Positions 18,301 to 63,981 of a DNA stretch of 64,000 bases are shown piece after piece. This DNA comes from Heliomicrobium modesticaldum Ice1 (lineage in GTDB: Bacteria; Bacillota; Desulfitobacteriia; Heliobacteriales; Heliobacteriaceae), in contig NC_010337.2 in assembly GCF_000019165.1 (NCBI RefSeq), forward strand, positions 124,001 through 188,000, read 5' to 3'. Both the position numbers and the translations under genes were made by a program. Numbering within the stretch: position 1 is the first letter of the stretch; each line of letters opens with the position of its first letter. A model generated the notes under the pieces. That model worked only from the letters and a program-made list of their open reading frames with translations. It was not told where the DNA came from and did no database searches.

Positions 18301-21300
18301 TGACTGCAACCTCAACTTTATTCGCTCCCGCGCTGAGGGGCACTTCCCGCCATTCGCAGTACTGTACTGGATATGGAGAGTTGACATCATCGTATTGATA
18401 TTCCGCTGTAGCCCCGTTGATGGTCAGAGATGCTCCGGGGTACCAGGGTTTGGCGCGAAGGTAGATTTTATCCACCTCGCTGCCCACATTGACGGTGTAG
18501 GCTAAGTTGAAAGGGTAGGAAACCGGATTTAAGCTTTCTATGCTGTTCTTGTCTATGCTTACCTGCAGTCCGCTGTTAGGGTCCAACCAGGCGTTCGCAG
18601 AAGGGGAGCGCTGGATGGTAATGTTGTAGACCTTGCTCACCTGTCCGTTCGGAGAGGTAACGGAAAACTGCACAGGGATAGGGTCCCATGTATATATGTT
18701 TTCCACATGGATCTCATATAATAATGGATTTTGGGAGCCTTTGTCACCGTGAACCTTGTATTTCCTCCAGACATATTGTGTAGGCACCTGGAATGTCGAA
18801 CCGTCTGACGCGCATGCAAGCGTAATTATAACCGAACTCGGCCACCCCGGGTACGTGGTTGAATTGGCGTCTTCGTCCGGCTGATACGGGATGGTGAGGA
18901 AATAACTTGTAATTCGCGGATCGAAAGCATGGTCAAAACTTCCGCAGTTAGCAGAAATGCTGGTAAGATCGGCAATCATTTCCGGAGGTGTCGGCCGCGT
19001 AACGTAAAGATTATATGTCGAGGTATTGCCGTTTGCGGCAACGACGGTTATGGGAATGGTGTTCATTTCGACTCCAAGGGAAACGGTTACGCCCGGAACA
19101 CTGTGGTCGACAAAGACAGTCGAACCGGCATAGTCAATCATATGATTTACGAAAGTGTAAGCAGGATTGTTACCTGTAGTGTATTCGGGCGTTGCATACA
19201 CCTTAATGTGATCTACGTAGGAAGGCACCTCCGCGTGGAACCCGTCAGTGCCGGATGACGGCACAACCGTTTGATCGTTGCCGGATTGGTCTTTGTATAC
19301 AAACCTGACACTCTCCAGGCCCATGTCTTGGTTTGACAAATTGAACCTGATTACATAATCGGTCCGCTTAAGGTCGGCTAATGTTCTGACCGTGACGGGA
19401 ATCGACACCTGCTGGTCTTCGCGGATTTGCCCAAGATTTGCCGTCCACCCATCTTCTTTGGTGACCACTGCATTTCCTATATAGACTTTTACGTTCTCGC
19501 TTATGGGCTCTGCGGTTATATAGACGTTGGAGTCACTGTTCAAATCTAAACCATGGCCTAAGCTAGAGGGAGTTAGTTCTATGTTTTGAGCGCCTGCCCC
19601 ATCGCCTATCCTGACCGCCAGTCTTTTGAGCGGCACATTTGTCCGGAAGACATTGAGGCTATAAGTTTCCCTGGTTGTACCGTCCTGGGCGGTGACCACA
19701 ATCTCGAAGCTGTTCTCTCCCGGCTGGATTTCAACAGTTTTGCGAATGCCGTAGAGCTGGGACTGCAATTCTTCACGCTGATTTCCGTCCACCTTGTACA
19801 GGGTTGCCGTCGCGTGGGGCTCATTAACATCGGCGTAGATAGCAATACTGGCGACATCTTCACCGACGCTCACGGTATAGGATGTCGTGTTTTTGTCAAA
19901 GGCCGGATCCAGTGTGCCCTGGTTAACGCTCAGATAGGCAAGCGTGGCGTCGCTGGACGGAGCCCGGTTCACTTTGACCGTGTAGGTGTTGGTGTCCATG
20001 TAGTCGCCGACCTCAAAGGTAATGATGTTTTCTCCCACGTTGAGGGGGGCCTTGAAAGTTTGCCCGCTGGACCATGGCACGCCGTTCACTTTGAGGGTGG
20101 CTCCGATGTGGTCCAGTACCGGGACGAACTCAATATCGGTGCGATATAAAGGTACGTTGATAACATAATTGTTCTGGTCAGGACTAAACTGGTCAGGACT
20201 AAAGTATAAGGAATCATTCGGCGAACTCAGGGACCTGAGCTTGATGGAAGGACCCTGCAGCACCGACAGTTGGTATTCCTTCATTGTCCCGTCTTCCGCC
20301 CATACGGTGATCGGTACCAACATGTTGTATCCGTTGAGGTCTTCCGTGTACCGATTCGTATCCAGGCCCCAAAATCTCACTTTTGCGCCTGGGCTCTGGG
20401 GTTTTGCCTCAATGGTGACTAAATTGGTGTTGTAAGGAACATACGCAGTGTAGCTAGTATCAGTATCATTCAGCTCCGGTATCAGGTTGCGCTGCTTCCC
20501 GCCGACTGTTACGGTCAGCTCGCCCAGGTTGGCGTTGGACGAACCTTTTACGGTATAGAGATCATCAATGGGACCGTGATGCTCCTCCAGGAGCAGCTTG
20601 AGCAGGCTGGTATCCACGCTGGCGCCGCCCTGAACCCCCAGCTCCACGCCCTCGCCCAGGTTGACGCCGCCGCTGGCGCCCACCGAGATGTCAATGCCCG
20701 CCTGCGCCAGGCCCGTCACGTCGTCAAACTGCAGCTCGCCCAGGGAGGTCACGAAGAAGATCATTTCGGGGTTTGCTTTCATGTACACGGAGGCTCCGCC
20801 GTCCACCGTCACCGTCGCCTCGGCTCCCAGGTCGGCGCTGGCGCCAATACCGAGGTCAAGGCCGAACATGGACCCGCTGATGCTTTTGATAAACTCAAGC
20901 AGGTGCTCCTTGCCCCCTTGGATGTAATTTTCGATGTTCCGCAGCGGTTCCAGGCTGCCTTCCCTGGCGGCATGAAGCATGGCGCGGTTTAGCCCCCTGA
21001 GGCATTCGATACTGGTCTTGGACGCCTCGACCAGCGGCCTGGCCGAAAGCTCCGCGGTAAGCTGGACATAGAGGGGCGTGCAGATGTCGAGTCTCAGCAC
21101 CGTCCCCTCCGCCAGGTTGTCAACCACTTCGTCCAGCCTGTCAAGCTGGTCCGGCACATCCCGGTCCACATTGCCGCTCAGCATGTTGCCCAGGAAAAGG
21201 GCCAGGCCTTCGACAGTATCGCTGATGAATTCTCCATTGGCAGCCGCCACCAAAGCCTCTCCCCCGGGAATTGAGGCATCGGCCGCAAAAAGGTTGAAGG

Positions 21301-23663: not shown

Positions 23664-26600
23664 TTATTTTGAGAGCAAGTTATACAGTACCTGGGCCATC
23701 TGCGCCCTGGTGGTGGTGTCCTTAGGCAAGAGTTTGCCGCCGCTGCCGCTTACTGTTCCGGTTTCCACCAGCAGCTTCATAGCGTCCTTTGCCCAGGGGG
23801 CGATTTCGCCTGTGTCACTGAAATCGGAAAGCCTTTTGCCGGAATCGTCGCCTTCAGGCAGCCGTCCTATTACCTTCAGCGCATTGTACAGCAAAGCGAA
23901 CATCTCCTGGCGGGTAATTTCCTTTTCAGGGGCGAACATGTTGCCGCCCACGCCCGCGGATATGCCGGTTCGCTTGGCCGCAGCCAGGTAGCCGGTATAC
24001 CAGGTGCTGCCCGCGTCCGCGAAATTGTCCTGCGGGTTTGCATCGGGGGTTATGCCGTACGCCTTCAGCAGCATAACGATGAACTGCCCCCTGGTCAGCT
24101 TCGCTTCGGGGCTGAAATTGCCGCCTCCCGTGCCGGTAGTGATCTCCCTGGCGGCGATGAAGGAAACCGCTTTTGAGTACCACGCATCCTTTGCCACGTC
24201 CTTGAAGCTCACCTGCTTGTAGCTTACGGCATAATAGCTGAAGTGGGTGGTGGTGAATGTCACGGTGCCTGTATCCGGGTTGTAGCGCCCGTTGGGCACT
24301 GAGACCACATTGCCGCTGCCGTCGATGTACCAGACGACGATATGCTCGGGATTGGCCAGCTCCGCCGCTGTCGGCTTATAGGGGATGCTTACCGTCACCG
24401 GCGCGTCGGGGTTACTCCAGTTTGTCTGCTTGCCATCCAGCGTCAGGGTAAGCTGGACAATGGGCCGGTCGCCGATTGCTGCTTTTACTTCCTCCGGCAG
24501 GCCGGTTTTGTCGCCCTGTGCGATGGTGATGCCCGCTGTTTTTTCTTCCGTTCCCGGTATTCCAGCCAGCATGCCGGACGGCATGGTGATGCTGCCCTCG
24601 CCGGTGGAGAAGGTCAGGGCGCCTTCGCCCTGTGAGCCGGACAGGGAAGCGGCGGGTATTCCTACGGTATAGGAGTTCACGCCGGGAATCGAGGGCACTG
24701 TGAGGACTGCCGTCCCCGTGCCGGCAAAGATATCTTTGGCCAGTGCACCAAGGTCTGTTGCCGCACTGCCCATATTTGTATTGACACTGACGGGCATTTT
24801 GGTTTCTGATATGTTGGTCCCGGAAACGGTGGCCTTGTATGTTGGCATGGCAGGAGTGCTGCCGGTGATAGCACTGCCGCCTCCGCCACTGCCACCTCCG
24901 CCTCCGCCACCGGCACTGGAAGCCGTCAGGGTAACCGTGTAGGTGTCGGCGGAGTCCGCCGTACCGTCATTGGCTTTGAATACCAGTGGGGTTGTGCCTA
25001 CAGCATTTGGCGTGTAGGAGTAATCTTTATCTGCCCCAGCATACGCTACGCCGTTCACCGATACCTTGTAGGTCAGATTGTCGCCGTCGGCATCCTCGAA
25101 TATGGTGGACAGATCAATGGTGTAGGCGCTGTTCACGGTCACGCTGGCCGTTGCGGTCGCGGGCACGCCGGATTTGCGCTTCGGCGCAGTGTTCACGGGG
25201 GGCGCAGCCGCGGTGGTTACTGATGTCATGGTGTAAGCGGTTTTGTTCCCTGCTTCGTCCATAACGATAACGTTAAAGTAGTAGGTGGTATTGCTATTCA
25301 AGCCGGTAATTTCTTTTGTGTCTGTATCTGTTGCGTAATCTCCGACTGCTGTGCCGTTATATACCGCGTCTGTTACCGATGCTATATTGTCTGAATCCGA
25401 ATAATAGACCCGATACCGCAGAGCGCTCTGGGGGCTCACATCGTCCGTCGCCTTGCTCCAGCTCAAAGTGACTCGGTTATGGGTGAGGCTGCCGGCAGTG
25501 ATGGTTCCGTCCGCCACGACCGGCGGAGTGGTGTCGGGCTGGGCCGGTTCCGCATCCGTCGTGACGGTCAGCCCCGCGCTCTCGGCCGATGCCTTGTGGG
25601 TGGCCGTTTCCTTGACCCTGGCCGTGAAGGTGTATTCGGTTTCCGGATCCAGTCCCGTGAATACATTGCTGTCCTGCCACGGGCCTCCGTTTACCCTGAA
25701 TTCGCAGGCTGCACTGGTGGTCAGCGTAACGCTGTCGTGCGTCTTGCTTGCCAGCGAAGGTGCTCCCGGGGCCGCCGGCCCGTCGGCTTTGTCCACAACA
25801 GCCGTCGGATCGCTGGTGACGCTGCCTGTGGCATGAACGCCATCGGCGGTGACGGTCACGGTGATGGTCTGGCCGATGTCGGCCTGCGCCAATGTGTAGG
25901 TTGAGGCTGTGGCCCCCGGGATATCCGCTCCGCCGCGCTTCCACCGGTAGGTGGGTACATCCTCGGTAGTATTCGGTGTATAGGTTATACCTGATGTTAC
26001 CGCTGTCAGTGTTTCGCCGTATTTGGCACTGCCGCTGATGGTTACACTGCCGCCCATGACCGGCAGCGGCGCCGCCGTGACGGTGATGGTTGCCTCGCCG
26101 TATACCCCGGAGCCGTCGTTAGCCGTCGCCCTTACCGTCACCGTGCCTTCTCCGGTGCCCGTCAGCAATCCGGTGGAAGCGTTTATGCCGGCTGTGCCCG
26201 TTCCGGAATACACGCTCCAGGTCACGGTTTTATCCGTGGCATCAACAGGCAATACTTCCGCTGTCATTTGCAGGGTACCGCCGTTCACTACTGTTGCCGC
26301 GTCACCTGCCCCTCTTACGGTGATGGAGGTTACCAGGGTGGGCGGCGCCGCCGTTACCGAAACCGGTACGGTTACATCTGCTGTATCCGTCCCGTCGTAG
26401 ACCGTGACCACAACCGATGTGTCGCCCGCCGCCACGCCGGTGAGGGTAACAGTGCCGCTGTCAAGGCTTGCCGTTGCCTTTGCTGTGTCCGGGCCTGTTA
26501 CAATAGCCGTGATGGTCAGCGGGTCATTGTTCGTATCTTCCGCGATATCGGAAGCGGTGAAGGTGGCCGTGCCGCCCGCGGTCACGCTTTGAGTCGGCAC

Positions 26601-28076
26601 CGGATTTTTCGCCGCTGGCGGGCTATTTGACGGCGGATCCGCTTCGGTGGCCGGGAATACGGCGGTCACCACGCCCGAACCAGCCGCGTTGCTTACCGAT
26701 GTGGCTCCGGCTACGGTAAAGAAGTTTGCAGCCACGCCTGTCAAGGTGTATCCTGTCTTTGGCGTCAGGGTTATGGTGGCCGTGTAGACCGTGCCGCCCC
26801 TGAACGGGTTGTCGGCCGGTGACCAGCTTACGGTTCCCGTATATTGTGCCGTTTCGGTTATCGCGGTTACGGGTGTTGCCCCCCTTGCCGGGGCGGTTAC
26901 TCCCGGAATAGCAGCAATGTCGATTGCAGCCGGCGGTTCAATGATATTGATGGCAAAGCTCCCCCCTGCGCTCCCCCCGGCGGTCCCGTCGGAGACGGTA
27001 AAGCTGAAGCTGTCAGCGCCGGTTGCATTGGTGTTCGGTGTATAGGTAATCAGGCTGTTGTCGATATCGGCCTGGGTGAAGGTCCCGCCTGCGGCGACTG
27101 CATTCCCGTTTTTCTTCAAAGTTCCCCTGGCAGGCGCCGTTCCCACGGCAAAGGTCAGGGAAGCCGCCCCCTGTTCGGGGTCGGTGGCCCTAAGCATGGT
27201 ATCGGTGATGGTCACAGCCTGGCTGTTCTTATTGACGCTTAGTCCGGTATTGACCGCCAGCACCGGCGGATTTCCGGTGGTAAAGCTGCAGGCGCCGCCG
27301 TAAGCGGTCCCGAAAGCATTGGTGACGTATGCTTTGTAATAGTAAGTGGTGTTCGCCTGCAGACCGCTGAGCGTCGCTGTAAACGGGCCGGTGGAGCCGG
27401 TGCTTCCCGCAGACACAGCTGTGCCGGAGGCCAGCGTAAGATTGGCGGGGTTGGTGGAGTAGACGATTCCCCGTTCCACGGTGGTGTCGTTTCCCAGTGA
27501 GGTGACGTTTCCGCCGGCGACGGCGGAGGTTGCCCCCACCGAGGCCGGAGCGGCATTGGTGGTTACGGTCGGATCGGTCGTCCCGTAAATCTTCAGTTCG
27601 GTGATGGCAGCCCATTTATTGTTCAGTCCGTTTCCGGTGTCCACCCGAACCCGGACATAGCGCGTGGTATAAGGGATGGAGATATTAAAAAAGCTTGTTC
27701 CATCCGGGCTTGCCTGCACCTGGTAATGCTGAATATTATAGGCAGTGCTCCACCCCGCGGAGGACATGCCTATCACTTCGATATTGTCAATCCGGTAACT
27801 GCTGCCCAGATCCACCTGCAGCCACTGGTTGGTTACACCGTAAGCTTTGGCGCAGACCCAGCGGCTGGCCGGAGCGGTGCTGCCGTCCACCGCCCGTTCC
27901 GGCCCGTAAGGCGCCATAAAGCTACTGGCTGATACGCCGACAGGCGATATGGGAATTAATTTGCCGGCGGCATGGGCCGTCTGTGCAATTCCCAGCATCA
28001 ATACCAAAACAATAACTGCCACTGCCGCAAGGCGACCGGCAATCCCGGCTATTCCAAATTTATGAGTTATTTCCAT
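23664..28076 (-). CDS. SLH-anchored surface protein D with F5/8-type C (discoidin) domain
   Basis: 1470 residues from the ATG at 28076, which follows GGGGG at 7 bases; an upstream TTG at 28094 is less likely. Residues 1-36 are a signal peptide (ends AHAAG). An F5/8-type C/CBM32-like domain follows (about 32-165; [20 protein letters not shown]), suggesting carbohydrate or lipid-headgroup binding. Then an FN3-like module with [12 protein letters not shown] (172-268), a cadherin-like module, the shared block of Ig/Big2/FN3-like modules, a Gly-rich linker, the pre-SLH domain and three SLH repeats (about 1289-1470). The C-terminal two thirds are a more diverged relative of the block shared by B and G. 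It is the last gene of a probable F-E-D operon (gap to E 35 bases). Confidence 0.92.
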
Positions 28077-28111
28077 GACACAACCCCCTTTCAAGCTTTA
28101 CGTCCTTCTGA

Positions 28112-47633: not shown

Positions 47634-49973
47634 TTATGCGACATAAAGTTCTTGCTCTAACTCCCGTATAGCCTGTTTGAATTTTTCTTTTCCCCCAAAG
47701 ATTTTGTTGACAATAAACTGAGGGGTTCCAAACTCTCTTATGGGATTTACCTTTAAAACATCCAAACTCTCTATATTAGAAATGCCCGAATCGGCATATT
47801 TGTCCAACAAAGCGTCCAAAACAGCCGCCGCTTTTTCCCCGTATTTAGCAAAATAATTTCGTTTTTTTACCTTATTTGCCCTTTCACGCCTTGTTAAAGG
47901 GGGTTGGTCAAATGCAATATGACACAGCAAATCAAACGGGTCAAATTCATGCCCGATTTGCTCCTGTAATTCTTCGATTAAGACGCCTTGTTCAGCAAGC
48001 TCGTCTAAAATGGCCTGCTTGCGTTCCGCGCTGTTCCAAACATGTAAAAAATCATGCAACGAGGCATACTTACTCAAAACATTTCGTTTTGTATAGTCTG
48101 TAAGAGATTCCGTAATCAATTTCCCATTTTTATCGATGTATTGAACTCTTTGCTTTAAAACAGATACCTCTACATCACCCACGTAGTATTTTTTACGTTT
48201 GCCAGACTCCGAATCGTTATCAATGGTGTAGTCCTTAGGATCTTCTCTTACAAATTCGCTATCGGAATCAGAATCATGTATATTGCCATTTTCATCAGGC
48301 ATATATTCATCATCCTGTTCACAGGGCCCGTCAAAGTCAGGATCGGCAAACAATCGCGTAGCATCTCTAAAATCAAAAATAGTAAAGAACACTTTCCCTA
48401 AATCTTCGCGAATCCGGGTGCCGCGTCCAATAATCTGCTTGAATTCAGTCATGCTGTTGATGTTGGTATCCAACACAATATATTTGACGGTCTGTATATC
48501 TACGCCGGTTGTCAACAATTTTGACGTTGTTACTAAAACGGGATATCTGCTGGACACATCGCGGAAATTGTCAAGCTGTTTTTTTCCGATATCGTCATCA
48601 CCGGTTATTCGCATCACATAGCGCTCGTCTTCTTTTACAAAATCGCTGTTCTCGTTAATTAGTGCCTGCCGCATGCGATCAGCGTGTTCAGTATCAACGC
48701 AGAAAAAGATGCTTTTATCCATTCGAGCGTTATGCGCTTTTAAATAATTGGAAACCACTTTTGCAACCACTTTAGTACGTTGCTCCAATACCAATTCCCG
48801 GTCAAAATCGGTAATGTTATATTCACGATCCTCTATAATATTTCCAAAACGATCCGTCTGTCCAAGATAAGGACGGAAGCCTTCGGCATCCTTATCAAGT
48901 AAGACTCGAATTACCCGATATGGAGCTAAAAATCCATCTTCAATACCTTGTTTTAACGAATATGTATAGACTGGTTCCCCAAAATAATCAATATTAGAAA
49001 CCTCTTTCGTTTCTTTTGGCGTTGCCGTTAAGCCGATTTGCGTAGCAGATTTAAAATATTCTAAGACCTCTCGCCATTCACTGTCAGCTTTGGCGCTGCC
49101 GCGGTGACATTCATCAACAACAATTAAATCGAAAAAATCAGGACTAAATTGACGGAAAATATCCTTGTCGCCTTCACCTGTAAGCCCTTGGTAAATAGCC
49201 AGGTATATTTCATATGATTTATCCACATGGCGATGGCGAATAATTGTCATTTTATCTTTAAATGGAGCAAAATCATTAGTATAAGTCTGGTCAATAAGCG
49301 CATTTCGGTCTGCTAAAAATAGAATACGTTTTTTAATACCCGCTTTCCAGAGTCTCCAAATAATCTGAAATGCTGTATATGTTTTTCCGGTTCCGGTTGC
49401 CATGACCAGTAATACTCTATTATTCCCTTTAACAATAGATTCAACAGTGAGATTAATCGCATTTAGCTGATAATATCGCGGTTGCTTATCAGGCCTTTCA
49501 ACATAATAAGGCTCCGTAATAACTTTTTCTTGCTTTTCATCTATACCTTTGTATTGCTTATACATGCTCCATAGTGTTTCAGGTGAGGGGAATTCAGAGA
49601 TGGATAAAATTGTTTCACGATTACTGCCTTCACTATTGCGGTTATGAAAAGTGAAACCGTCACCATTTGATGTAAATACAAACGGCACGCGTAATTGTTC
49701 GGCATAACCTAATGCTTGCTGCATTCCATCCGATATTGTATGATTGTTATCCTTTGCCTCAATAATAGCAATGGGAATGTGTGGTTTATAGAAAAGGACA
49801 TAATCTGCATATTTAGCCTTATCTCTCTTATAAGACCCGCCGCGAGCTATAATTCGCCCTTTTGTAATAGCATATTCTTCACGGATTTGAACATCAGTCC
49901 ACCCAGCAGCTTTAATAGCCGGAGTTATAAACCTTGTACGTATTTCTTGTTCAGTAAGTGATCTCTTGTCCAT
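47634..49973 (-). CDS. hsdR: Type I restriction endonuclease subunit HsdR
   Basis: 779 residues from the ATG at 49973; the frame extends 5 codons to a TTG but the ATG fits better. An N-terminal HSDR_N nuclease domain has ADYVLFY and IEAK (PD-(D/E)xK core, about residues 57-74). The SF2 helicase has ATGTGKT (about 191-198), DECH (287-290), GLTATP, and motif VI QIIGRGTR. The C-terminal part (about 640-779) contacts the methylase. It translocates and cuts unmodified DNA with HsdM and HsdS. At ~780 residues it is of the shorter EcoEI-like type. The region is visibly richer in A/T than its neighbours, consistent with transfer. Confidence 0.95.
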   Translation of the reverse strand: MDKRSLTEQEIRTRFITPAIKAAGWTDVQIREEYAITKGRIIARGGSYKRDKAKYADYVLFYKPHIPIAIIEAKDNNHTISDGMQQALGYAEQLRVPFVFTSNGDGFTFHNRNSEGSNRETILSISEFPSPETLWSMYKQYKGIDEKQEKVITEPYYVERPDKQPRYYQLNAINLTVESIVKGNNRVLLVMATGTGKTYTAFQIIWRLWKAGIKKRILFLADRNALIDQTYTNDFAPFKDKMTIIRHRHVDKSYEIYLAIYQGLTGEGDKDIFRQFSPDFFDLIVVDECHRGSAKADSEWREVLEYFKSATQIGLTATPKETKEVSNIDYFGEPVYTYSLKQGIEDGFLAPYRVIRVLLDKDAEGFRPYLGQTDRFGNIIEDREYNITDFDRELVLEQRTKVVAKVVSNYLKAHNARMDKSIFFCVDTEHADRMRQALINENSDFVKEDERYVMRITGDDDIGKKQLDNFRDVSSRYPVLVTTSKLLTTGVDIQTVKYIVLDTNINSMTEFKQIIGRGTRIREDLGKVFFTIFDFRDATRLFADPDFDGPCEQDDEYMPDENGNIHDSDSDSEFVREDPKDYTIDNDSESGKRKKYYVGDVEVSVLKQRVQYIDKNGKLITESLTDYTKRNVLSKYASLHDFLHVWNSAERKQAILDELAEQGVLIEELQEQIGHEFDPFDLLCHIAFDQPPLTRRERANKVKKRNYFAKYGEKAAAVLDALLDKYADSGISNIESLDVLKVNPIREFGTPQFIVNKIFGGKEKFKQAIRELEQELYVA

Positions 49974-49998
49974 TTTCTCACCACACAAAATAAGTATT

Positions 49999-50328: not shown

Positions 50329-51902
50329 CTACAATTCCACATTTACTTCCGTCCCTGTCTTAAACTCCACCGTCAGCCTGCCGTCATATACAGTAACCCT
50401 GTTGACAATCCTTCTGACAAGCTTGTCGTCAAACTCAAAAAAGATGCCAGACTGGCTGTTTAAAAATTCCTCCATCTCGGCGACGCTCCGGCGCTTACCG
50501 TGAATGTCGGCGCTGCCCGAAAGGATTTTGCCCTTGATCTCCCGCAGGCGGTAAATCTCCTCGACCACCGCCTCATAGTTTTGCCCGCCGCTGGCGAGCC
50601 TTACAAGCTCGTCCTGAAGCTGCGCAAGCTTTTCCTCGATTTCATCAACGCCCTGCCCGGCTCCGCCGCCTATGACGGCCTCCACGTTTTTCCGCATGGC
50701 GGAGATAAACTCCTCCTTGCCCAGCACCAGCTTGTTGATTGCCTTCACCACACCACGCTTGAGATCCGCTTCCTTGACGCTCTGCGAATGGCACTCAGGC
50801 GTACGGCACTCAATCTTCCTGACGCACCGCCAGACCACCGTCGGCCGGTTGCCGTAATACCAGGTAATGCGCCGGTACAACTCCCCGCAGTCGCCGCAAA
50901 AGACGATGCTTGAAAGCGCGTACTTGCAGCTGTAGCACCGCATTTTCCCGCCGACGTCGGTGAAAGGCTTGGCCCGCCTTGCAAGCTCCTCCTGAACCTG
51001 CATGTAGATTTCCCTTGGGATGATCGCCTCGTGGCTGTTTTCCACATAATACTGCGGGACAATGCCGTTGTTGATTACCCGCTTTTTGGTCAGGCAATCG
51101 ACGGTGTAGGTCTTCTGGAGAGGCGCGTCCTCCATGTATTTTTCGTTTTTCAGTATCTTCCTTATCGTTTCCGGCCGCCACTTGGGCTTGCCCGCCGCGG
51201 TAAGGATGCCGTCGGCCTCAAGCCCCTTTCCTATCTGCAGAAGGCTTGAGCCTTCGAGAAACTCGCGGAAAATGCGCTTGACAATCTCCGCCTCTTCCGG
51301 CACAACCACAAGCTGCTTGTTTGCGTCCTTGGTATAGCCCAGAAAGCGGGTATGGTTGACCTGTATCTCCCCCTGCTGGTAGCGGTACTGTATCCCCAGC
51401 TTTACATTCTGGCTTAGGGATTCGCTCTCTTGCTGGGCGAGGCTGGCCATGATTGTCAGCATGACCTCGCCCTTGGAATCCATGGTGTTGATGTTTTCCT
51501 TCTCGAAAAATACCGGGATGCCCTTGTCTTTTAATTGCCGGATGTATTTCAGGCAGTTGAGGGTGTTTCGGGCGAAGCGGCTGATGGATTTGGTTATCAC
51601 CATATCGATTTTGCCCGCCATGCATTCCTCGATCATGCGGTTGAATTCCGCCCTTTTTTCGTATTGGTGCCGGAGATGCCCTCGTCGGCAAATATGCCAG
51701 CCAGCTCCCACTCCGGATTGCCCTGTATGAAAGACGTGTAATGCTCGATTTGCACCTCGTAGCTGGAGGCCTGCTCCTCCTCGTCGGTGGAAACCCGGCA
51801 GTAGGCCGCCACCCGCAGCTTATGCCCGGCGCTGTCCTCCGCCGCCAGGTGCATATTTCTTTGCGCCGGTATGACCGACACGTTCCTTGCCGTCTGCAGC
51901 AC
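50329..51902 (-). pseudogene. Large serine recombinase, frameshifted
   Basis: The N-terminal part (51902-51640; GTG start, weak AAGGAG) has the resolvase catalytic motif [16 protein letters not shown] with the nucleophile Ser and [13 protein letters not shown]. The frame then breaks and resumes as a 460-codon frame ending at 50329: ITKSISRFARNTL, a recombinase domain, a zinc ribbon (CYSCKYALSSIVFCGDCG, later WRCV and CRTPEC) and a coiled coil. Joined they give about 520 residues, normal for element integrases. The break is at a run of six T (plus strand, 51654-51659); one more base would restore the frame. It would mediate integration and excision if the frameshift were corrected or is a sequencing error. 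Confidence 0.88.
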
Positions 51903-53547: not shown

Positions 53548-55368
53548 CTACTCAATCCGAACAGGCGCTTCCGGCTGCCTTGATTTAAGCAGCGCTTTTG
53601 TTTTCGGCGCGGCTTTCGCTTCTTCCCTGACGGGCGCGTGCGCCATGCCGCCCGCCGCCGCTTCCGGTTCCTCGTCGGTATCCACGCAGGCCGCGTGCCG
53701 CCGGATGATTTCCTGTTCCAGCTCCCCGCGGTCGGCGTAGACCACCTTGCGGGCGGATTTCTCCGCAATCTCATAGGGCTTGCCGAAGGTGATGCCCCAT
53801 TCGAGGAACAGCTTGAGGGTGCCGCGCATGGGATTGACCCCGGTCTTGGTGACGATGAAGCGGCCTTTGGGCATGCTTTTCAGCTCGTCCGGCGTCATCA
53901 GGGGGCGCTGGATCATCTGCAGGGACTGGCCGGGATCGTTTTTGCCGCGGCTTACCGAGCCGCTCATTACGGTCCTGTTGCCGAGGGCTTTTGACAAAAC
54001 TTCAGCGGACTCGCTGTTGGGCGCGAAACCGCCGAACACCATGTCCTGGCAGTTGTCGACGATGATGGACGCGCCCTCCTTGCCGTAGTTCTTCTCCAAT
54101 TGAGCGAAGCTCTGGATAATGGCCACGATGGATATGCGGCGGGAACGGGAGGCGGAAAACATCATCTCGATGGATTCAATCTTGGGAATGGTGCCGATCT
54201 CGTCCAGGTACATCATGACCCTGTTGGGGAGCCTGCCGCCATGCTCGTCGGCCACGGCCAGCATCTCCCGGTAGAGCTGCTGGACGATGAGGCTGATCAA
54301 AAAGTATTTGGTGCTGTCTTCCTCCGGCATGACCAGGAAGATGGCGCTTTTTTTAGTGCAGAACTTTTCCGCGTCGATGGCGGTGTCAAAGCAGAGGATT
54401 TGCTCCAGCTCGGAATCCAGAAAGGCGTTCAGGCGGGACAGTGCCGTGGAGAGGACGCTCTGCATGGCCTGTTCCGCGCTGTTGACGGCCGCCCCCGCGA
54501 ACCAGCGGGCCTTGTGCTCCGGAGGCAGCTTTTCAATCAGCAGCTGGAATTGGTTTTTACCCTTGACGCCGGAGGGAGCCAGCAGGTCCTGGATCAGCTT
54601 GAACACGCTGATGATGTGCCGCTTGGGCGGCGGGCAGTATTCCGCGACGAGCAGGATGACGGAGGTCAGAAGCCCCTCGGCGGCGTCATAGAAGAAAGCG
54701 TTTTGCCCGTAGGCGGCCGCGTCCGCACCTCCCGGATTTATTATGGTCTTGGCGATGATCTTGGCGTACTTCTCCGCTTTGGCCTTGAAAGAAAGGTTCT
54801 CCGGATCGGCGATATAGGCGTCCATATACTTGTTGACCAGATGGAGCATGTTGTTGCCGTCGCTTCTGGTAGGATTACGCAGGTCAATGACCGCCACATC
54901 GTAGCCGTAGTGTTCCTTCGCGATGCCGCCGTAGTTGCGGTACAGGTCGCCCTTGGTGTCGGTTGTGATGAAGGACATGCCGGAGGCGCAGGCGTATTCC
55001 AGGTTGGGGTACAGGAAATGAGCCGTCTTGCCGACGCCGGCGGCACCGATCATGAGGCAGTGAATATCGCCGGTGTCCACCAGGGCGGTGACGCGGCCGC
55101 GGGATATTTTGCAGCCCACCACCAGCCCCTGGGCGGAGGGCAGGTTCTTTTTCCGCCGCCACAGCGTCGGCGTGTAGGGCAGATGGACATATGTCTTATG
55201 AATTTCTTGTTTTGTCGCCCAGCGCGCGGTGCCGTGCTGTCCGTCGCCGACGGTTTTGGATTTGATTCCGTTTAGAGTATAATAATGGGCCAGCAGGGAA
55301 AGGAAGCCGATAACCCCGAACATGGTCAAGGCCGCGGCGGTCAGCGTGATGATTTGGGATGTTTGCAT
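53548..55368 (-). CDS. VirD4/TraG-type conjugative coupling protein
   Basis: 606 residues from the ATG at 55368 after AAGGAGGTG; the open frame extends 44 codons further but overlaps the previous gene and lacks a ribosome site. TM segments: residues 5-28. Walker A GAAGVGKT (about 108-115), Walker B MMYLDEIG, and GGFAPNSESAEVLSKALGNR typical of TraG/VirD4. It couples the relaxosome to the secretion channel at the membrane and powers DNA transfer. The C-terminal 40 residues are Ala/Glu-rich and disordered. Lies between the Toprim protein and the winged-helix gene in the transfer operon. Confidence 0.95.
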   Translation of the reverse strand: MQTSQIITLTAAALTMFGVIGFLSLLAHYYTLNGIKSKTVGDGQHGTARWATKQEIHKTYVHLPYTPTLWRRKKNLPSAQGLVVGCKISRGRVTALVDTGDIHCLMIGAAGVGKTAHFLYPNLEYACASGMSFITTDTKGDLYRNYGGIAKEHYGYDVAVIDLRNPTRSDGNNMLHLVNKYMDAYIADPENLSFKAKAEKYAKIIAKTIINPGGADAAAYGQNAFFYDAAEGLLTSVILLVAEYCPPPKRHIISVFKLIQDLLAPSGVKGKNQFQLLIEKLPPEHKARWFAGAAVNSAEQAMQSVLSTALSRLNAFLDSELEQILCFDTAIDAEKFCTKKSAIFLVMPEEDSTKYFLISLIVQQLYREMLAVADEHGGRLPNRVMMYLDEIGTIPKIESIEMMFSASRSRRISIVAIIQSFAQLEKNYGKEGASIIVDNCQDMVFGGFAPNSESAEVLSKALGNRTVMSGSVSRGKNDPGQSLQMIQRPLMTPDELKSMPKGRFIVTKTGVNPMRGTLKLFLEWGITFGKPYEIAEKSARKVVYADRGELEQEIIRRHAACVDTDEEPEAAAGGMAHAPVREEAKAAPKTKALLKSRQPEAPVRIE

Positions 55369-55424
55369 GGGACACCTCCTTATGGGTGGTTTTGCTTGCT
55401 GTTTGTGGAGAAGGATTTGCAATT

Positions 55425-56930
55425 CTACAGCATGAGTCTTTGTGACGCCAAACCCGTATGCTCCGCCTGTCGAACATTTCCGTCCGCTTTTTGCAGGCAA
55501 AGCGTTTCAGTATTCTGTTTGAGTTCTTCAAGGCGGACAAAAATCTGCGACCTGACGCAGTCCAGCGCAAGGCGCAGATAGGATGCGATGAGATTATGCT
55601 TGTCTTCCGGACTGCGGAGGCCGGCTGCGCTGATCTGGCGGTTGAGAGAGGAAACGTCCTGCCGCAGGTCGTCCGCCCTGGAGCGCAGCATGCCCCTGTC
55701 CCGGTGGAGACGGTAGCTGTCCTGAAGCTCTGCAATGAGCTGCTCTATGGCCGCCGGCTGTTCCATCTGCCGGTATTGTCTTTGGGCGGCAAGCAGAGCT
55801 GCCGCAGCCATGACTCTCAGATGCTCCGTCACCGCGGGCGCCTTTCCCTGCGGCAATTTTCCGTTTGCTATCAGGGGTTTCAGCTTTTCATAATGCTCCA
55901 GCAGCATAGCGTACGGGTTGTGCGTAGATATTAAAGATTTGCAGGTTTCATAAAGCCCGGCGCAGATTTCCGGCAGGGCCTCCAGCTTGGGATGGCCCTG
56001 TGCCGGGATGGGTGCGACGCCGTTCTTTGCTTTTAAGTCTTCATTCCAGTCCTTGTATTCCGGTTGCCGGACCGGCACCTTCCTGCACCCCCGCGCATTG
56101 AGGATTTCGGCCAGCCGTCCCGCGGCTTCGATGCCCGCCTCGTCATGGTCCAGGCACAGTACAACCTTTTGCAGGCGGGGGTTTAATTCAAGCTGCCGCA
56201 GCAGGGCGTGTTCGGCCACGCCGTCCAGGGCCACATAGCTGTTTTGCTTCCAGTCCTCCGGGTAGAGGGTGATAAAGGACAGCATATCTATGGGCGCTTC
56301 AAACACATACAAGGTGTCGTTAGCGCCTATATGATGGAAGCTGTATGCCGGATCGCTGCCTTCCACGTTGCCCCGGTAGCTGCCGCCCACGGTGTAAAGC
56401 CCCCGTTTGTGCGCATGCCTCGGGACGCCGTTTTCATCATACCCGACAAAAACAGCGTTGTGATATTCTTTTGTTTTATCCGCGGACCGCTCGCAGCTTT
56501 CATAAAGCATTTTTGACTTCGCGAAATGGGCGATAACATCCCGGTCTATGAACCGCTGTTTGATCAGGTACGCATAGACGCGGCGCATGTCGCTGTTCAT
56601 TTCCGGCAGTGCAAAGGGTTTGCGGGGAGCCGGGGCGCTTTTATGGGTTTGATTCCATTCCACGCCCCCTTCGCCGCCCAGGAGCAGCGTCACCGCCTCC
56701 GGAAAGGACAGGCCGTAGAATTCCCGCACGAAGTCGATGGCAAGGCCGCCTTCCTCCCTGCTGTGCCTGTACCATTGGTTGCCCCGGATGGTCACACTGT
56801 CATGCCGCTTCCAGCGCCAGTCCCTTCCGGCGCGGGTGAGCTGCTCTCCCTGGCGCCGCAGGAAGTCCGCTATGTCTATCGAATTGGCCCGGCGTTTTTG
56901 TTCATCGGTGAAGGGAATGTATTTGCTCAT
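55425..56930 (-). CDS. DUF3991/Toprim primase-like protein
   Basis: 501 residues; ATG at 56930 after GGGAGGG. The N-terminal DUF3991 domain (about 20-140; WRWKRHDSVTIRGNQWYRHS, GLAIDFVREFYGLSFPEAV) is followed by a Toprim fold with ETxx-like APIDMLSF and KVVLCLDHDEAG (about 210-280). The C-terminal part is helical. Such proteins are carried on conjugative elements and may prime or protect transferred DNA; activity is not proven for this family. Confidence 0.88.
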   Translation of the reverse strand: MSKYIPFTDEQKRRANSIDIADFLRRQGEQLTRAGRDWRWKRHDSVTIRGNQWYRHSREEGGLAIDFVREFYGLSFPEAVTLLLGGEGGVEWNQTHKSAPAPRKPFALPEMNSDMRRVYAYLIKQRFIDRDVIAHFAKSKMLYESCERSADKTKEYHNAVFVGYDENGVPRHAHKRGLYTVGGSYRGNVEGSDPAYSFHHIGANDTLYVFEAPIDMLSFITLYPEDWKQNSYVALDGVAEHALLRQLELNPRLQKVVLCLDHDEAGIEAAGRLAEILNARGCRKVPVRQPEYKDWNEDLKAKNGVAPIPAQGHPKLEALPEICAGLYETCKSLISTHNPYAMLLEHYEKLKPLIANGKLPQGKAPAVTEHLRVMAAAALLAAQRQYRQMEQPAAIEQLIAELQDSYRLHRDRGMLRSRADDLRQDVSSLNRQISAAGLRSPEDKHNLIASYLRLALDCVRSQIFVRLEELKQNTETLCLQKADGNVRQAEHTGLASQRLML

Positions 56931-57079: not shown

Positions 57080-58864
57080 TTAATAGCTTTGGCGAGGTTC
57101 GCGATCGTCATGGGCGTGGCCCTGGGCCGCTTTTTTCTGCGCCAGCTTTTTGCGCAGCTTGCGATCCACCTGCATAACGCCTCCGCCAAATCGCTTTTGC
57201 TCGTCGCGGAAGATATTGCCCAGGTGGTGCATGAGCCGTGTGGCCGCCAGCAGGACCGACGGTTCGCGGAAGGAGTCCACGCGGTCGAGGAAAAACTGCG
57301 CATAGATGTTTCCCTGTCCGGCTGACAGAGAAAGCCAGCGTACCGCGGCCTCCCGGTCCCTTGGAACCTCATGCCCCATAAGGTAGAGCTTGCCGAGCGC
57401 ATACTGCGCATATTGATTTCCCTGTTCCGCGGAAGCAGTCAGCCACTTGACGGCCTCATCCACATCTTTGGGAACATCCTTTCCCAGCAGGTAGAGCTTG
57501 CCCAGCCTGTACTGGGCGAATGAATTGTCCTGCATTGCGGATTTTGCCAGCAGTTCTACGGCCTTCGGAACATCTTTGGGCATATCCTCTCCAGTAAGAT
57601 ACAGCTTTGCCAGCGCGTATTGGGCATGGACGTTGCCCAGCCGGGCCGTCTTTTCAAAATATGCAGCCGTCGCGGACACATCCTTGGGAATATCTTCTCC
57701 CGCGAGATACATGTCTGTTTCCATATCCTCATCCGGCTCAAAAGTGAAATGGTGGCCGCCGATGCTCATTGCCTCGGCGATCACCATATTTTTTATGCTC
57801 TTGAATTCCTTCCGTCTGGAGAGAGGCAGCGGATCGGGAAGCATGTCGGCATAGGTGCGCAGCACTTCGTTGCGCAGCTCGCACCATTTTTCGTAGCACC
57901 GGGCTACCCGCTCATCCCTGGCCAGCTCGTCCACGATCTGATCGACGACCGCCTTGAGGGGCGCTTTCAGATAGCCGTATTTCTTTTTGCCGGAGGTGTG
58001 CTTGAGCCGCTCCGCCAGGCGCGCAATCAATTCCTCAATGGTTTTGTTTTCGCAGACTCCCGAACTTATCTGACCGATGATTTCCCGCATGGACTCCCGG
58101 CTTTGTCTGGTCAGGGCGTCGCGGCGCTTCGTCTGTTCGGAATAAATCTGAATAAGGTCCTGTTTGAAGATTTCCCTTGCCAGGCTGCTTCGCATGTTTT
58201 CAATGCCCTGTTTGGTGAGATAGGCTTCCGTGGGGTTAACGGAGTATGCGATTAAATGCACGTGAGGATGATGACCCTCGTTATGGTAGGCGGCGTACCA
58301 GCGGAGATTTTCCGGGGCAATCTTCATCTGCTCCGCGATATGGTTGCGCTGTCCCCGGATCAGGTCCCGCCACGCTTTGGCGTTGTCGTAGCCGAGCCGA
58401 GCCGCGTCCTCCCGGCGCAGGGAGATGACATTGGTCCACACGTTGCCAGCGTGATTGGCGACTTCCTCTGCCACTTTGGACAGCACCACAGGCAGGTCGG
58501 CGTCGGTAAACAGGCCATGGCTGCCAAGGGCCTCCGCCCCCGGGCGGTTGGCGATGTATCCGACATAGTTTTCGCGCTTGCCGAGGAGATCGAGGTTTTG
58601 CTCCAGCGCCACGGCGATAAACTCCGACGCGTTTTCCCTGGTCTTATCTTTAAAGTAGTCTTCGTACTCGAAGAGGCCGGCCGTGTCGGGAAGCTTGCTT
58701 ATGATTTCTGCGATGAGCCGCTGTTGTTTTTGGGTGGCGGGAAGCAGTCCCGTGCTGTCCGGCACTTTTTCCACGCCCTCGCGGGTGGCTGCGTATTCTA
58801 TGAAATTGGCAAGGTGTTCCGGCGCGTTTTTCAGGTAACGGCATTTGAAGATAATCCTCGGCAT
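57080..58864 (-). CDS. MobP-type relaxase with C-terminal Sel1 repeats
   Basis: 594 residues; ATG at 58864 after AGGTGAC, 11 bases past the mobC stop. The N-terminal relaxase domain has the metal-binding triad YHNEGHHPHVHL (193-204) and a likely catalytic Tyr near 100-103 (NYVGYIANRPG). It nicks oriT and stays covalently bound to the transferred strand. A helical linker (250-370) leads to four 36-residue Sel1 repeats (about 388-540; AQYALAKLYLTGEDMPKDV), then a basic tail. Sel1 repeats form protein-binding solenoids and probably recruit the coupling protein or another partner. Confidence 0.92.
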   Translation of the reverse strand: MPRIIFKCRYLKNAPEHLANFIEYAATREGVEKVPDSTGLLPATQKQQRLIAEIISKLPDTAGLFEYEDYFKDKTRENASEFIAVALEQNLDLLGKRENYVGYIANRPGAEALGSHGLFTDADLPVVLSKVAEEVANHAGNVWTNVISLRREDAARLGYDNAKAWRDLIRGQRNHIAEQMKIAPENLRWYAAYHNEGHHPHVHLIAYSVNPTEAYLTKQGIENMRSSLAREIFKQDLIQIYSEQTKRRDALTRQSRESMREIIGQISSGVCENKTIEELIARLAERLKHTSGKKKYGYLKAPLKAVVDQIVDELARDERVARCYEKWCELRNEVLRTYADMLPDPLPLSRRKEFKSIKNMVIAEAMSIGGHHFTFEPDEDMETDMYLAGEDIPKDVSATAAYFEKTARLGNVHAQYALAKLYLTGEDMPKDVPKAVELLAKSAMQDNSFAQYRLGKLYLLGKDVPKDVDEAVKWLTASAEQGNQYAQYALGKLYLMGHEVPRDREAAVRWLSLSAGQGNIYAQFFLDRVDSFREPSVLLAATRLMHHLGNIFRDEQKRFGGGVMQVDRKLRKKLAQKKAAQGHAHDDREPRQSY

Positions 58865-58875
58865 GGTATGTCACC

Positions 58876-59283
58876 TTACTCGCCCTTCTGGAATTTCACC
58901 ACGTCCTCGAAGGTGACGGCGCCGACGGATTTCTTCACGTCGTTCACGCACTTGCCCCGCAGCCTCTGCAGCAGGGCTTCGTCAATCTCCGCGTTGGACG
59001 CGATGATGTTCATCATCATGGACATTTCCACCGCCAGCTTGAAGAGCAGGCGGGCGATCCTGTTCTCCGAGCTTTCCACCACCCCGGCCATGGCGGAGGT
59101 TAGGGCGGCGGGCAAATACTTCATGCTGTTTTCCGCGGAGATGTAGCCGCAGTAAAACAGGACCGCCTTTTCGATGAACTCGCTCTGGCTGCCGCAGTTG
59201 TCCTTTTTATACCATTCCTTGACCTGCTTCCGCGTTTCCGGGCGCATCCACAAGGGGAATTTCTTTTTGTTTTCTTCTGCCAT
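58876..59283 (-). CDS. MobC-like relaxosome accessory protein
   Basis: 135 residues from the ATG at 59283, after GGAGGTG at 6-7 bases. The frame runs further upstream to 59403, but that part is translated repeat DNA. The N-terminal part (FPLWMRPETRKQVKEWYKKD, SQSEFIEKAVLFYCGYI) is a ribbon-helix-helix-type DNA-binding fold. The middle has two hydrophobic helices (SSENRIARLLFKLAVEMSMM). It is expected to bind oriT and load the relaxase encoded immediately downstream. Confidence 0.82.
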   Translation of the reverse strand: MAEENKKKFPLWMRPETRKQVKEWYKKDNCGSQSEFIEKAVLFYCGYISAENSMKYLPAALTSAMAGVVESSENRIARLLFKLAVEMSMMMNIIASNAEIDEALLQRLRGKCVNDVKKSVGAVTFEDVVKFQKGE

Positions 59284-59687
59284 ATTGTCCACCTCCAATC
59301 CGGTGCGCATTTTTGCCGCAACGCCTGTCGCGACGCCTGTGAAAAGCCTTCGGCTATGGGCTTTGCCGCGGCCTGCGACTCCTGTAGCAACCCCAAATGA
59401 CAAAATCCGACCCCGGCGGGAAACGTCCTTCAGCCCGCATTGCGGGCTGATGTGAGCCGAGGCGGAGGCGTTTGCGACCCCGCCTCTTTAACCTGCAAGG
59501 TTTTCGACCCCATGGTTCACCCCCCAAAAGGGAGGGTAGCTTCCATGCCTGCGTCCGCTTTTTTGTTTTCCCGCTCACAAAGCCCCGATACGGGGCGTTA
59601 TTCTGCCCGCAGGTGTTATGATGTCACCCCCGCCGCAAAAAGCGGACACAGGGGTACACAGGCGGCGACAGTGCGTCCAAACCGCAT
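59284..59687. other. Noncoding region upstream of mobC, candidate oriT
   Basis: 404 bases without a credible gene. It holds an almost perfect inverted repeat CAGCCCGCA/TGCGGGCTG (59431-59439 and 59441-59449), and near-repeats of GTCGC-ACAGGCGTTGC type around 59315-59395. Its position just upstream of MobC and the relaxase is the usual place for oriT. Confidence 0.4.
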
Positions 59688-61268: not shown

Positions 61269-61634
61269 TTACATGCTCATGGTCATGCCCTGGGTTTCTT
61301 CCTCGGCAGGTCCCTCCGTCCCGGTCTGAGCTTGCGGAGAGGAAGGCGCCTCGGTTGCTGCCTGCTCACGCTGGCGGCGGGTCTGCCTTGGCTGGCGCTG
61401 CGGTTCCGTCTGCCGTTCCTGGGCTTCCGGTCCTGGCATCTGTTCCTGGGCAGGCTCCTGTCCGATCCTGCTTTCCACATACTCCCGGACATGGACGGGG
61501 ACGATCCTCTCATAGGTTTTTTCAAGGTAATCCTTCATCTCCCGTTCGATGTCCAGCTCTTTTTTGCGCATAAAAAAACGGAGGGCCTCCAGCTTCTCCG
61601 TGGGGAACAGTATCGTAAGTTCCGTTTCTCTCAT
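61269..61634 (-). CDS. DUF6103-like small element protein (copy 2)
   Basis: 121 residues; ATG at 61634 after AAGGAGGAAATG. Core FPTEKLEALRFFMRKKELD and VPVHVREYVESR match copy 1, followed by a long Gln/Pro/Arg-rich, probably disordered tail ending TMSM. It lies between parM and the M23 peptidase gene (17 bases). Two paralogues in one element suggests different partners. Confidence 0.72.
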   Translation of the reverse strand: MRETELTILFPTEKLEALRFFMRKKELDIEREMKDYLEKTYERIVPVHVREYVESRIGQEPAQEQMPGPEAQERQTEPQRQPRQTRRQREQAATEAPSSPQAQTGTEGPAEEETQGMTMSM

Positions 61635-62741: not shown

Positions 62742-63236
62742 TCACCACCATTTCAGGCCAAACAGGTTCTCCTGTTCCGGCTGCTGTTCCTCGGCCAGCC
62801 GGATGGATTTTTCCACCGCCTGTTCCAGAACCTCGGTGTCAAAGCCCGCGCTTTCATAGCCTTCCAGGATGGTGTTCAGGTAGTGATCCGAGGGCGCGCC
62901 GAAGGGATGCCCGTCGTTCATGATATACGCCATGGCGGAAACGATCCCGCCTTTCAGCTCCACATTGAGGATTTTCTTGCGGTAAAAGTGGGGATATCCC
63001 TCGTAGCGATCGAGAGCCTGCAGGTCTTTTTCCTTCAGCGTCCATAAAAGAACAGGCACACAGCCGCCTTTGCAGGGTTCCACCGTTGCCACCGCGCTAT
63101 GGCGGCTGCCTCTGAACAGCAGCTCATAATCCTTAAGCTCGCTTGTCCCGACTACTTTGGCGGTGGGGCAGCGGCAGGCCATCTGCGTCAGGTTGAGGTT
63201 GCTGCCGTAGGCGATGTATAGGGTTTTGCTTTTCAT
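62742..63236 (-). CDS. Gamma-glutamylcyclotransferase-like (AIG2) protein
   Basis: 164 residues. The family motif YIAYGSNLN (residues 7-15) and the acidic catalytic region ALDRYEGYPHFY are present; the C-terminal 40 residues are a charged extension. This family releases 5-oxoproline from gamma-glutamyl peptides. It lies 19 bases after an amidoligase gene, the combination known from mobile elements and proposed to make and break peptide tags or cell-wall links. Confidence 0.88.
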   Translation of the reverse strand: MKSKTLYIAYGSNLNLTQMACRCPTAKVVGTSELKDYELLFRGSRHSAVATVEPCKGGCVPVLLWTLKEKDLQALDRYEGYPHFYRKKILNVELKGGIVSAMAYIMNDGHPFGAPSDHYLNTILEGYESAGFDTEVLEQAVEKSIRLAEEQQPEQENLFGLKWW

Positions 63237-63255
63237 TTTCTCTCATTCCTCCTTG

Positions 63256-63981
63256 CTACATGGACATGGAAAGGCCGGGTCCTTCTTCAGTCCCGGCCTG
63301 TTCCATGTCTGTTTGATCTTGTTCCTGTGACGCCTGTACGGCCCCGGCGGCCCGCGCCAGTTCCTTTTCTTTTTTCTGCCTTAGCCTTTGTTTTTGCCGT
63401 TCCGCCTGGGCGGGGTCTTTCCACGCGATGCAGCCGTCCAGATGTTCCAGGAGATGAAGCCGGGCGGTCTTGAATTCGTCGCCGATAAGGCCTAGCCGCA
63501 GAAGCCAGGTGCGGAAGGTATATTTTTCATTGGTGCTTTGGGTTTTGATGCGGCTGGCGCACCTCTGTGTCAGTGCCTGATGGCTGATGGCAAGGCAGAT
63601 CTGGATGTATGCCTTGATCTTTCCGGCATGGGTGGTGCCGTTGAACAGCCTGAATTCAATCGTGCCCTTCTGGAACACGCTGTGGAGGTTCAAACAGTGG
63701 TAGCGGCTGTTGTGGTAATGCTCATGCCTACCGTCGTTACCGTTGTACCAGATCCGGCTGACCTGCTCCAGGGTTTTCGGCTTCTTGCGGTTGAGTTCCT
63801 CCAAAAAGCTCTGCTCCACCTTTTTGCAGTAGCGGCGTTCCCGTGCCACGCTCACCTGCAGCGCCTTGTAGATCAAGTCCTCCTTGCTGGCCATGATGTT
63901 GGTGATGTTGCGCAGGGTGTTGGCGTTGTGGGGCGAGGCGTCCACGTGGACATGGATGTTATGTGAAGCTTTGCATAACAT
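63256..63981 (-). CDS. Amidoligase-family protein, 5' end missing or rearranged
   Basis: 241 residues visible from an ATG at 63981. Typical C-terminal amidoligase features: IHVHVDASPHNANTLRN, MASKEDLIYKAL, YHCLNLHSVF and TIEFRLFNGTTHAGK (catalytic Glu/His/Arg set), then a Lys/Gln-rich tail. The normal N-terminal ~100 residues with the earlier acidic motif are absent. A TAA lies in frame two codons upstream, and a perfect 12-bp inverted repeat (63952-63963 and 63974-63985) covers the breakpoint. Truncation by rearrangement or an assembly edge is possible; the window ends 19 bases later, so I cannot decide. Confidence 0.75.
   Translation of the reverse strand: MLCKASHNIHVHVDASPHNANTLRNITNIMASKEDLIYKALQVSVARERRYCKKVEQSFLEELNRKKPKTLEQVSRIWYNGNDGRHEHYHNSRYHCLNLHSVFQKGTIEFRLFNGTTHAGKIKAYIQICLAISHQALTQRCASRIKTQSTNEKYTFRTWLLRLGLIGDEFKTARLHLLEHLDGCIAWKDPAQAERQKQRLRQKKEKELARAAGAVQASQEQDQTDMEQAGTEEGPGLSMSM

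Follow-up and report, generated by a model that had tools for sequence, protein, structure and literature searches.

The relaxase encoded at 57080-58864 of the window (the whole 64,000-nt stretch of Heliomicrobium modesticaldum Ice1 DNA analysed here) carries an array of four Sel1 repeats between its nuclease domain and a conserved C-terminal module. This fusion marks one subclade of the MobP3 relaxases, not MobP3 overall. Comparison of the members' sequences suggests that the Sel1 repeats are an optional arm and that the C-terminal module, or tail, is the part that must stay. The gene is organized as follows:

57080-58864, minus strand: relaxase frame, ATG start, 594 amino acids
57707..58864, minus strand: MobP3/MobL relaxase (HUH nuclease) domain, residues 1-386, from Pfam MobL and NCBIfam MobP3
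58793..58795, minus strand: Tyr24, candidate catalytic tyrosine
58256..58285, minus strand: histidine motif HNEGHHPHVH, residues 194-203
57248..57679, minus strand: four-repeat Sel1 array, residues 396-539, last repeat degenerate, from Pfam, AlphaFold and fold comparison
57083..57262, minus strand: conserved C-terminal module, residues 535-594, made of a helix (LLAATRLMHHLGNIFR), a basic helix (DRKLRKKLAQKKAAQGH) and a polar end

Residues 1-386 match the Pfam MobL model (PF18555) at 144.9 bits (cut-off 28.5). The NCBIfam MobP3 model (NF041499) is matched over its whole length at 416.9 bits (cut-off 150), from residue 24 to residue 361, but this match ends before the repeats. H194, H198, H199, H201 and H203 are invariant across 37 aligned rows, with H194, H201 and H203 making up the three-histidine signature of HUH nucleases; a more diverse set of 15 rows shows H194, H199, H201 and H203 without exception and H198 almost always. 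Y24 and Y103 are both invariant tyrosines in 15 rows, and Y24 is the putative catalytic one. The MOBL relaxases (PF18555), such as RelLS20 of pLS20, likewise have a three-histidine motif and an N-terminal tyrosine. RelLS20 uses Y26, and no repeat arm is mentioned in the available part of the publication (PMC5313138), whereas the window relaxase has one.

The repeat region scores 114.7 bits with the Pfam Sel1 model (PF08238, cut-off 30.7), and three stretches pass singly; it consists of tandem 36-residue helix-pair repeats. Borders were placed at 396-431, 432-467, 468-503 and 504-539 with a model made from the same protein's own four repeats, which is circular as detection and supplies borders only. 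An AlphaFold prediction from 14 aligned rows had a mean pLDDT of 51.5, and since the nuclease domain was poorly modelled it was used for the Sel1 part only; there, four helix pairs are seen, with block pLDDT values of about 71-92 over residues 401-530. The closest solved folds are Sel1 proteins, the best being 6orc (Z 17.4 over 134 residues, in a comparison that effectively covered residues 383-555 only), and Sel1 proteins of the PDB also match by sequence, down to 1.3e-49. LceB, LpnE, HcpC and AlgK share this solenoid fold (Z 13-17), but in the window relaxase it forms an internal module of a DNA-transfer enzyme. In the tail, whose start overlaps the end of the last Sel1 repeat, helices are predicted with low confidence at 535-558 and 568-580 (blocks at about 30-59). 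Thus, the original prediction of a relaxase joined to four Sel1 repeats was borne out by Pfam, NCBIfam, AlphaFold and PDB fold matches, far above chance. A chance or mis-framed fusion was also considered and ruled out, the arrangement being common to 36 relatives at 40-98% identity.

A search for the same fusion, the check proposed together with the prediction, recovered Sel1 repeats in 43 of the 44 subclade members of the final tally. The tail module was found in 42 of the 44, although 17 of these rows, L149 not among them, served to train the tail profile and match by construction; the two members without it are L081, which is cut by the contig, and L103, whose frame is broken. When full or nearly full frames were scanned with Pfam (E 0.001), Sel1 was detected in 37/37 subclade rows versus 0/36 other MobP3 rows, and Sel1 as a general MobP3 feature was rejected on the latter count. 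The possibility that the repeats are a family-wide trait with a known role, raised with the original prediction, therefore applies to nearly all of the subclade but not to the other MobP3 relaxases, and a described role was not found in the literature searched. In a quickly built 73-row tree of the nuclease domain alone, the Sel1 trait amounts to one change, the Sel1 group lying on one side of a branch with an SH-aLRT value of 98; L072, the nearest row outside the group, has a long branch. A subclade profile of the nuclease domain gave at least 579 bits with members and at most 137 bits with other MobP3 proteins (197 relatives of one member's genome). Near-identical relaxases occur in other organisms, at 97% identity in Pelotomaculum terephthalicicum and 98% in a Tepidanaerobacteraceae MAG. 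Five Sel1-less MobP3 relaxases of 812-844 amino acids (L109, L110, L111, L112 and L119) show a second, weak and partial MobP3 match in the same frame, possibly a partial duplication.

No description of a relaxase-Sel1 fusion was found in the literature on MobP3, on Sel1 or tetratricopeptide relaxases and on Sel1 in integrative and conjugative elements, subscription journals being largely outside the coverage. The available part of one paper found for MobP3 relaxases (PMC6907783) describes none, and two papers holding both 'relaxase' and 'Sel1' concern, in the parts available, separate Sel1 genes; the MOBL publication (PMC5313138) is not one of those with both words. Among the matches listed for phage and plasmid collections, stand-alone Sel1 proteins were found apart from a few relaxases.

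To collect relaxases, 82 genomes of the window's class were scanned for the MobP3 model, which matched in 19 of them and passed its cut-off in 17. A partly overlapping set of 398 genomes from the phylum had matches in 39, with 36 passing. The window protein as query in genome_contigs gave 14 loci, and four plasmid or phage records were added. The Sel1-less member described below came from 46 genomes of another class, where the model matched in 8 and passed its cut-off in 6; other class searches (22, 4, 4 and 37 genomes) gave no additional subclade member. In viral_contigs, no relative was retrieved with a single-protein query and six loci with the nuclease-domain alignment as query; five of the six have a readable relaxase frame, and all five carry Sel1 and the tail (13.8-60.3 bits with a tail model built before their retrieval). 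Both are also present in L150, a member found later. Duplicate contigs were dropped (L039, L042, L044, L097 and L099), together with L043 (a 340-aa subclade frame that looks broken and in which Sel1 was not detected), L169 (relaxase split in two close to the end of its contig), the fragments L018, L019 and L028 (the last being the contig-cut end of a Sel1-bearing relaxase) and a second, short relaxase frame in L114. L081 was counted though cut by the contig, and so was L038, which is incomplete in the N-terminal region and shows neither a VirD4 nor a Toprim homologue within the stretch covered. The Pfam Sel1 scan did not extend to L029 and L030 (424 and 448 aa) or to L151 and L152, nor to the new rows of the 37-genome search (393-424 aa, one 231 aa), all of them over the MobP3 cut-off; our own Sel1 model gives nothing above 5 bits in L151 and L152.

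Judging from the sequences, the size of the array has changed repeatedly. Frames in the subclade range from 463 to 1082 amino acids, and detected repeats number from 2 up to 11, or 1 in a contig-cut row. When members were sorted into four size classes of our own choosing (20 long, 15 short, 2 middle and 1 none, with one cut row excluded), eight changes were needed on a careful tree; the window array is of the short form, like those of its closest relatives. A clear case is the pair L037 and L040: 404 of their 436 aligned positions agree, yet most of the array is missing in the frame from L037, and one junction of the deletion falls inside the conserved part of a repeat. By eye, no association was seen in the subclade loci between array size and any neighbouring gene.

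At the same time, the array is under purifying selection, with dN/dS values below 1. A value is defined for the array in 11 of 12 pairs and lies between 0.12 and 0.59, compared to 0.09-0.38 for the relaxase domain in 12 pairs; some rows recur among the 12 pairs, and the values involving the window depend on a small number of changes. The value for the array exceeds that of the nuclease domain in 10/11 pairs. Relative to the array, the tail has the lower value in 6 of 11 pairs, an equal one in 1 and the higher in 4, reaching 0.89 in a pair with the window where changes are few. There is no sign of positive selection on the array as a whole (11 pairs).

One member of the subclade, L149 (also L136), has a relaxase frame of 463 amino acids from which Sel1 repeats are absent. 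As it groups with the Sel1-bearing L103 at 100/100 support in the careful tree, the array was probably lost rather than never present. With a profile from which L149 was left out, its tail module scores 31.8 bits, against best values of 8.3 bits in 1000 shuffles and 8.6 bits in the tails of 36 other MobP3 rows; the model of the short basic tail by itself gives the L149 tail only 10.2 bits. The locus also has homologues of the VirD4, Toprim, M23 peptidase, amidoligase and GGACT proteins. The module looks complete and its frames are open, yet this is a single case and the element may be decaying. Because the tail is retained in L149 it is preferred as the essential part; dN/dS alone does not single it out. 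The tail is thus also a better candidate than the array for the contact with the coupling protein. The relaxase frame of L103 stops short of the tail, and the tail is matched about 1.1 kb further along by a different frame, immediately preceding the Toprim gene; this relaxase gene looks broken or interrupted.

The array could be largely a passive spacer, or baggage that was inherited and recombines readily since the repeats are alike; frequent length change and one complete loss are compatible with this. We consider this distinctly improbable, given the purifying selection and the presence of the array in 43/44 members. The latter figure also argues for more than a marginal role and in that respect speaks against a dispensable arm.

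The genes and the non-coding segment around the relaxase gene are the following:

58876..59403, minus strand: small gene directly upstream of the relaxase gene, true start probably internal
59420..59535, minus strand: conserved non-coding block with two hairpins, upstream of the transfer operon, from BLAST conservation
55425..56930, minus strand: DUF3991/Toprim (primase-like) protein of 501 residues, next gene downstream, from Pfam
53548..55500, minus strand: VirD4-like coupling protein of the CD1115 family, from Pfam and NCBIfam; the start may be 55368

The usual gene order in the subclade is small gene, relaxase-Sel1, DUF3991/Toprim and VirD4, the Toprim gene being usually, not always, next after the relaxase. 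Homologues of the window Toprim protein were found in 34/36 subclade loci (duplicate contigs removed) and of the window VirD4 protein in 32/36; both genes are missing in L081 (contig end) and L038, and VirD4 only in L034 (contig end) and L088. In other MobP3 loci, a Toprim homologue was present in 8/36, always upstream of the relaxase. The DUF3991/Toprim match ends near residue 300 of 501 in L098, L079, L103, L149 and L167, so that about the last 200 residues are missing. Docking of the Sel1 array on the C-terminal part of the Toprim neighbour was considered and is weakened by the short Toprim protein of the Sel1-bearing L098, L079, L103 and L167; the Sel1-less L149 has a short match just as these four do.

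The window VirD4 protein matches the NCBIfam VirD4 CD1115 model (NF045973) at 267.1 bits for a cut-off of 250. The original prediction had named the coupling protein as a possible partner of the array, and in keeping with this Sel1-bearing relaxases accompany a VirD4 of the window type in 32/36 loci. Moreover, an 8.1-kb Subdoligranulum plasmid record retains relaxase-Sel1, Toprim and VirD4 as a set. Such linkage is equally explained by co-inheritance in one operon. L149 keeps the tail and a VirD4 of the same family (853 bits to the window protein) without any array, many Sel1-less MobP3 relaxases also lie near a VirD4 homologue, and repeat number varies over its full range while VirD4 stays alike. 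We therefore regard it as quite unlikely that the array itself is a docking arm for VirD4. No Sel1-binding role came up in the literature for the VirD4 CD1115 family under that name. The Subdoligranulum record (L071, OY725859.1, circular, 8097 bp) has a homologue of the upstream gene together with the other three; no other transfer gene was noticed by eye in its frame list.

Upstream of the operon, the non-coding block was matched by BLAST in 29/44 subclade loci versus 0/38 other loci. A loose hairpin pattern occurs in 26/40 loci, a count made without a shuffled control. The two arms of the first hairpin seem, by eye, to change together; the second hairpin is CCCGCAATGCGGG. No Rfam match was obtained for the block at the gathering score or to E 1. 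From its conservation and place we infer that the block is a candidate oriT or leader RNA. The small gene that follows it has no Pfam or NCBIfam match. Its label as 'RHH-like' is a guess by analogy with the auxiliary relaxosome proteins of pLS20 and with a CopG-family regulator gene that occupies the same upstream place before a different MobP3 relaxase.

Altogether, the reading that we prefer, and to which we give about an even chance, is that the window protein is the relaxase of a Gram-positive conjugative element whose tail would be read by VirD4, the Sel1 repeats forming an accessory, partner-binding arm. The nuclease would nick a nearby oriT, for which 59420-59535 is the candidate, and the VirD4 coupling protein would recognize the basic C-terminal module; both steps are suggested by conservation and position. 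The Sel1 solenoid would recruit a partner, either an element or a host protein, to the relaxosome or carry it along, and would improve transfer while being needed for neither nicking nor export. As an accessory, it could drift in length. The repeats are thus probably a tunable, dispensable docking arm, a role proposed because of the nature of Sel1 solenoids, the purifying selection and the natural deletion in L149. Of the built-in protein-docking arm originally predicted, the arm itself makes the best sense of a Sel1 solenoid under such selection, and the coupling protein as its partner is what L149 weakens.

Relaxases travel covalently bound to the transferred strand. The array might act after transfer, the relaxase being delivered with the DNA and its solenoid binding a replication, repair or defence factor of the recipient; host factors in recipients were the other partner that the original prediction had suggested. 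Near-identical relaxases in different organisms (the 97% and 98% cases) would fit with this, as a host-side adaptor could matter there, and so would the slightly weaker constraint on the array relative to the relaxase domain. Yet the array as a whole lacks the mark of positive selection and nothing links it to a recipient protein; we hold an action of this kind to be rather unlikely. A natural series of relaxases, from those without repeats through those with a few, the window relaxase among them, to those with as many as eleven detected, provides ready variants for testing what a docking arm contributes to transfer. Which further cargo a conjugation system takes up and delivers depends on the C-terminal parts of relaxases.

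A short hydrophobic motif is shared by the C-termini of several proteins of these elements. Two candidate carriers of such a signal are encoded in the window:

61269..61634, minus strand: DUF6103 protein, C-terminus GMTMSM
63256..63981, minus strand: amidoligase-like protein, C-terminus GPGLSMSM

Of 4279 stop-to-stop frames in subclade loci, 31 end in the pattern (M/L)(S/T)(M/L)(S/T)(M/L), and 23/44 loci have such a frame, versus 0/3691 frames in 38 other MobP3 loci; the loci are related and these counts are not independent. In a first count, which included repeated contigs and the window, the motif was C-terminal in 34/8150 frames, with 63 occurrences anywhere in 1,045,011 residues. A looser pattern ends 20/21 DUF6103 proteins (p61269-like), 16/20 amidoligases, 13/33 Toprim proteins and 5/36 relaxases. 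The same pattern ends none of the VirD4 (0/35), upstream-gene (0/33), ParM (0/12), M23 (0/28), HTH (0/30), p59688 (0/28), p60056 (0/12) and GGACT (0/20) frames. Although p59688 and p61269 are related, being matched by the same frames, p59688 is without the motif, so the motif is not merely a trait of the DUF6103 family; relaxase, Toprim, amidoligase and DUF6103 proteins belong to different Pfam families. Two viral_contigs relaxases end in PTITM and PTMSM. The window Toprim protein ends in QRLML, and the window relaxase ends in EPRQSY, without the hydrophobic (M/L)(S/T)M(S/T)M ending of some relatives.

The motif comes after a basic and then an acidic stretch and is a candidate secretion signal; a degradation signal is the alternative. 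Neither 'secretion signal' nor 'C-terminal motif' is found in the available part of PMC5512222, which deals with polyvalent proteins of conjugative elements. Tentatively, the shared C-terminal signal (basic, acidic, (M/L)(S/T)M(S/T)M) on relaxase, Toprim, amidoligase and DUF6103 proteins may define substrates of Gram-positive type IV secretion, with the removable, length-tunable Sel1 arm just before the relaxase signal bringing in partners that accompany the transferred strand or assist in its loading; we see this as possible rather than probable. The retained tail and the C-terminal motif common to unrelated element proteins are pointers to testable secretion signals for Gram-positive type IV systems.

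The GGACT-like and amidoligase genes are adjacent in the window (62742-63981, minus strand), as in related elements such as L149, and two L071 frames resemble this pair. A large serine recombinase is encoded at 50329-51902 (minus strand). The match between its 460-aa frame and the Resolvase model starts only at position 47, and an overlapping frame (51633-51902) reads by eye like the missing start; the gene looks broken. A type I restriction enzyme R subunit (47634-49988, minus strand) adjoins the recombinase. At 5409-14339, 15356-22714 and 23664-28094, all on the minus strand, lie genes for three very large proteins with S-layer homology, which also have Ig-like, cadherin-like or carbohydrate-binding domains.
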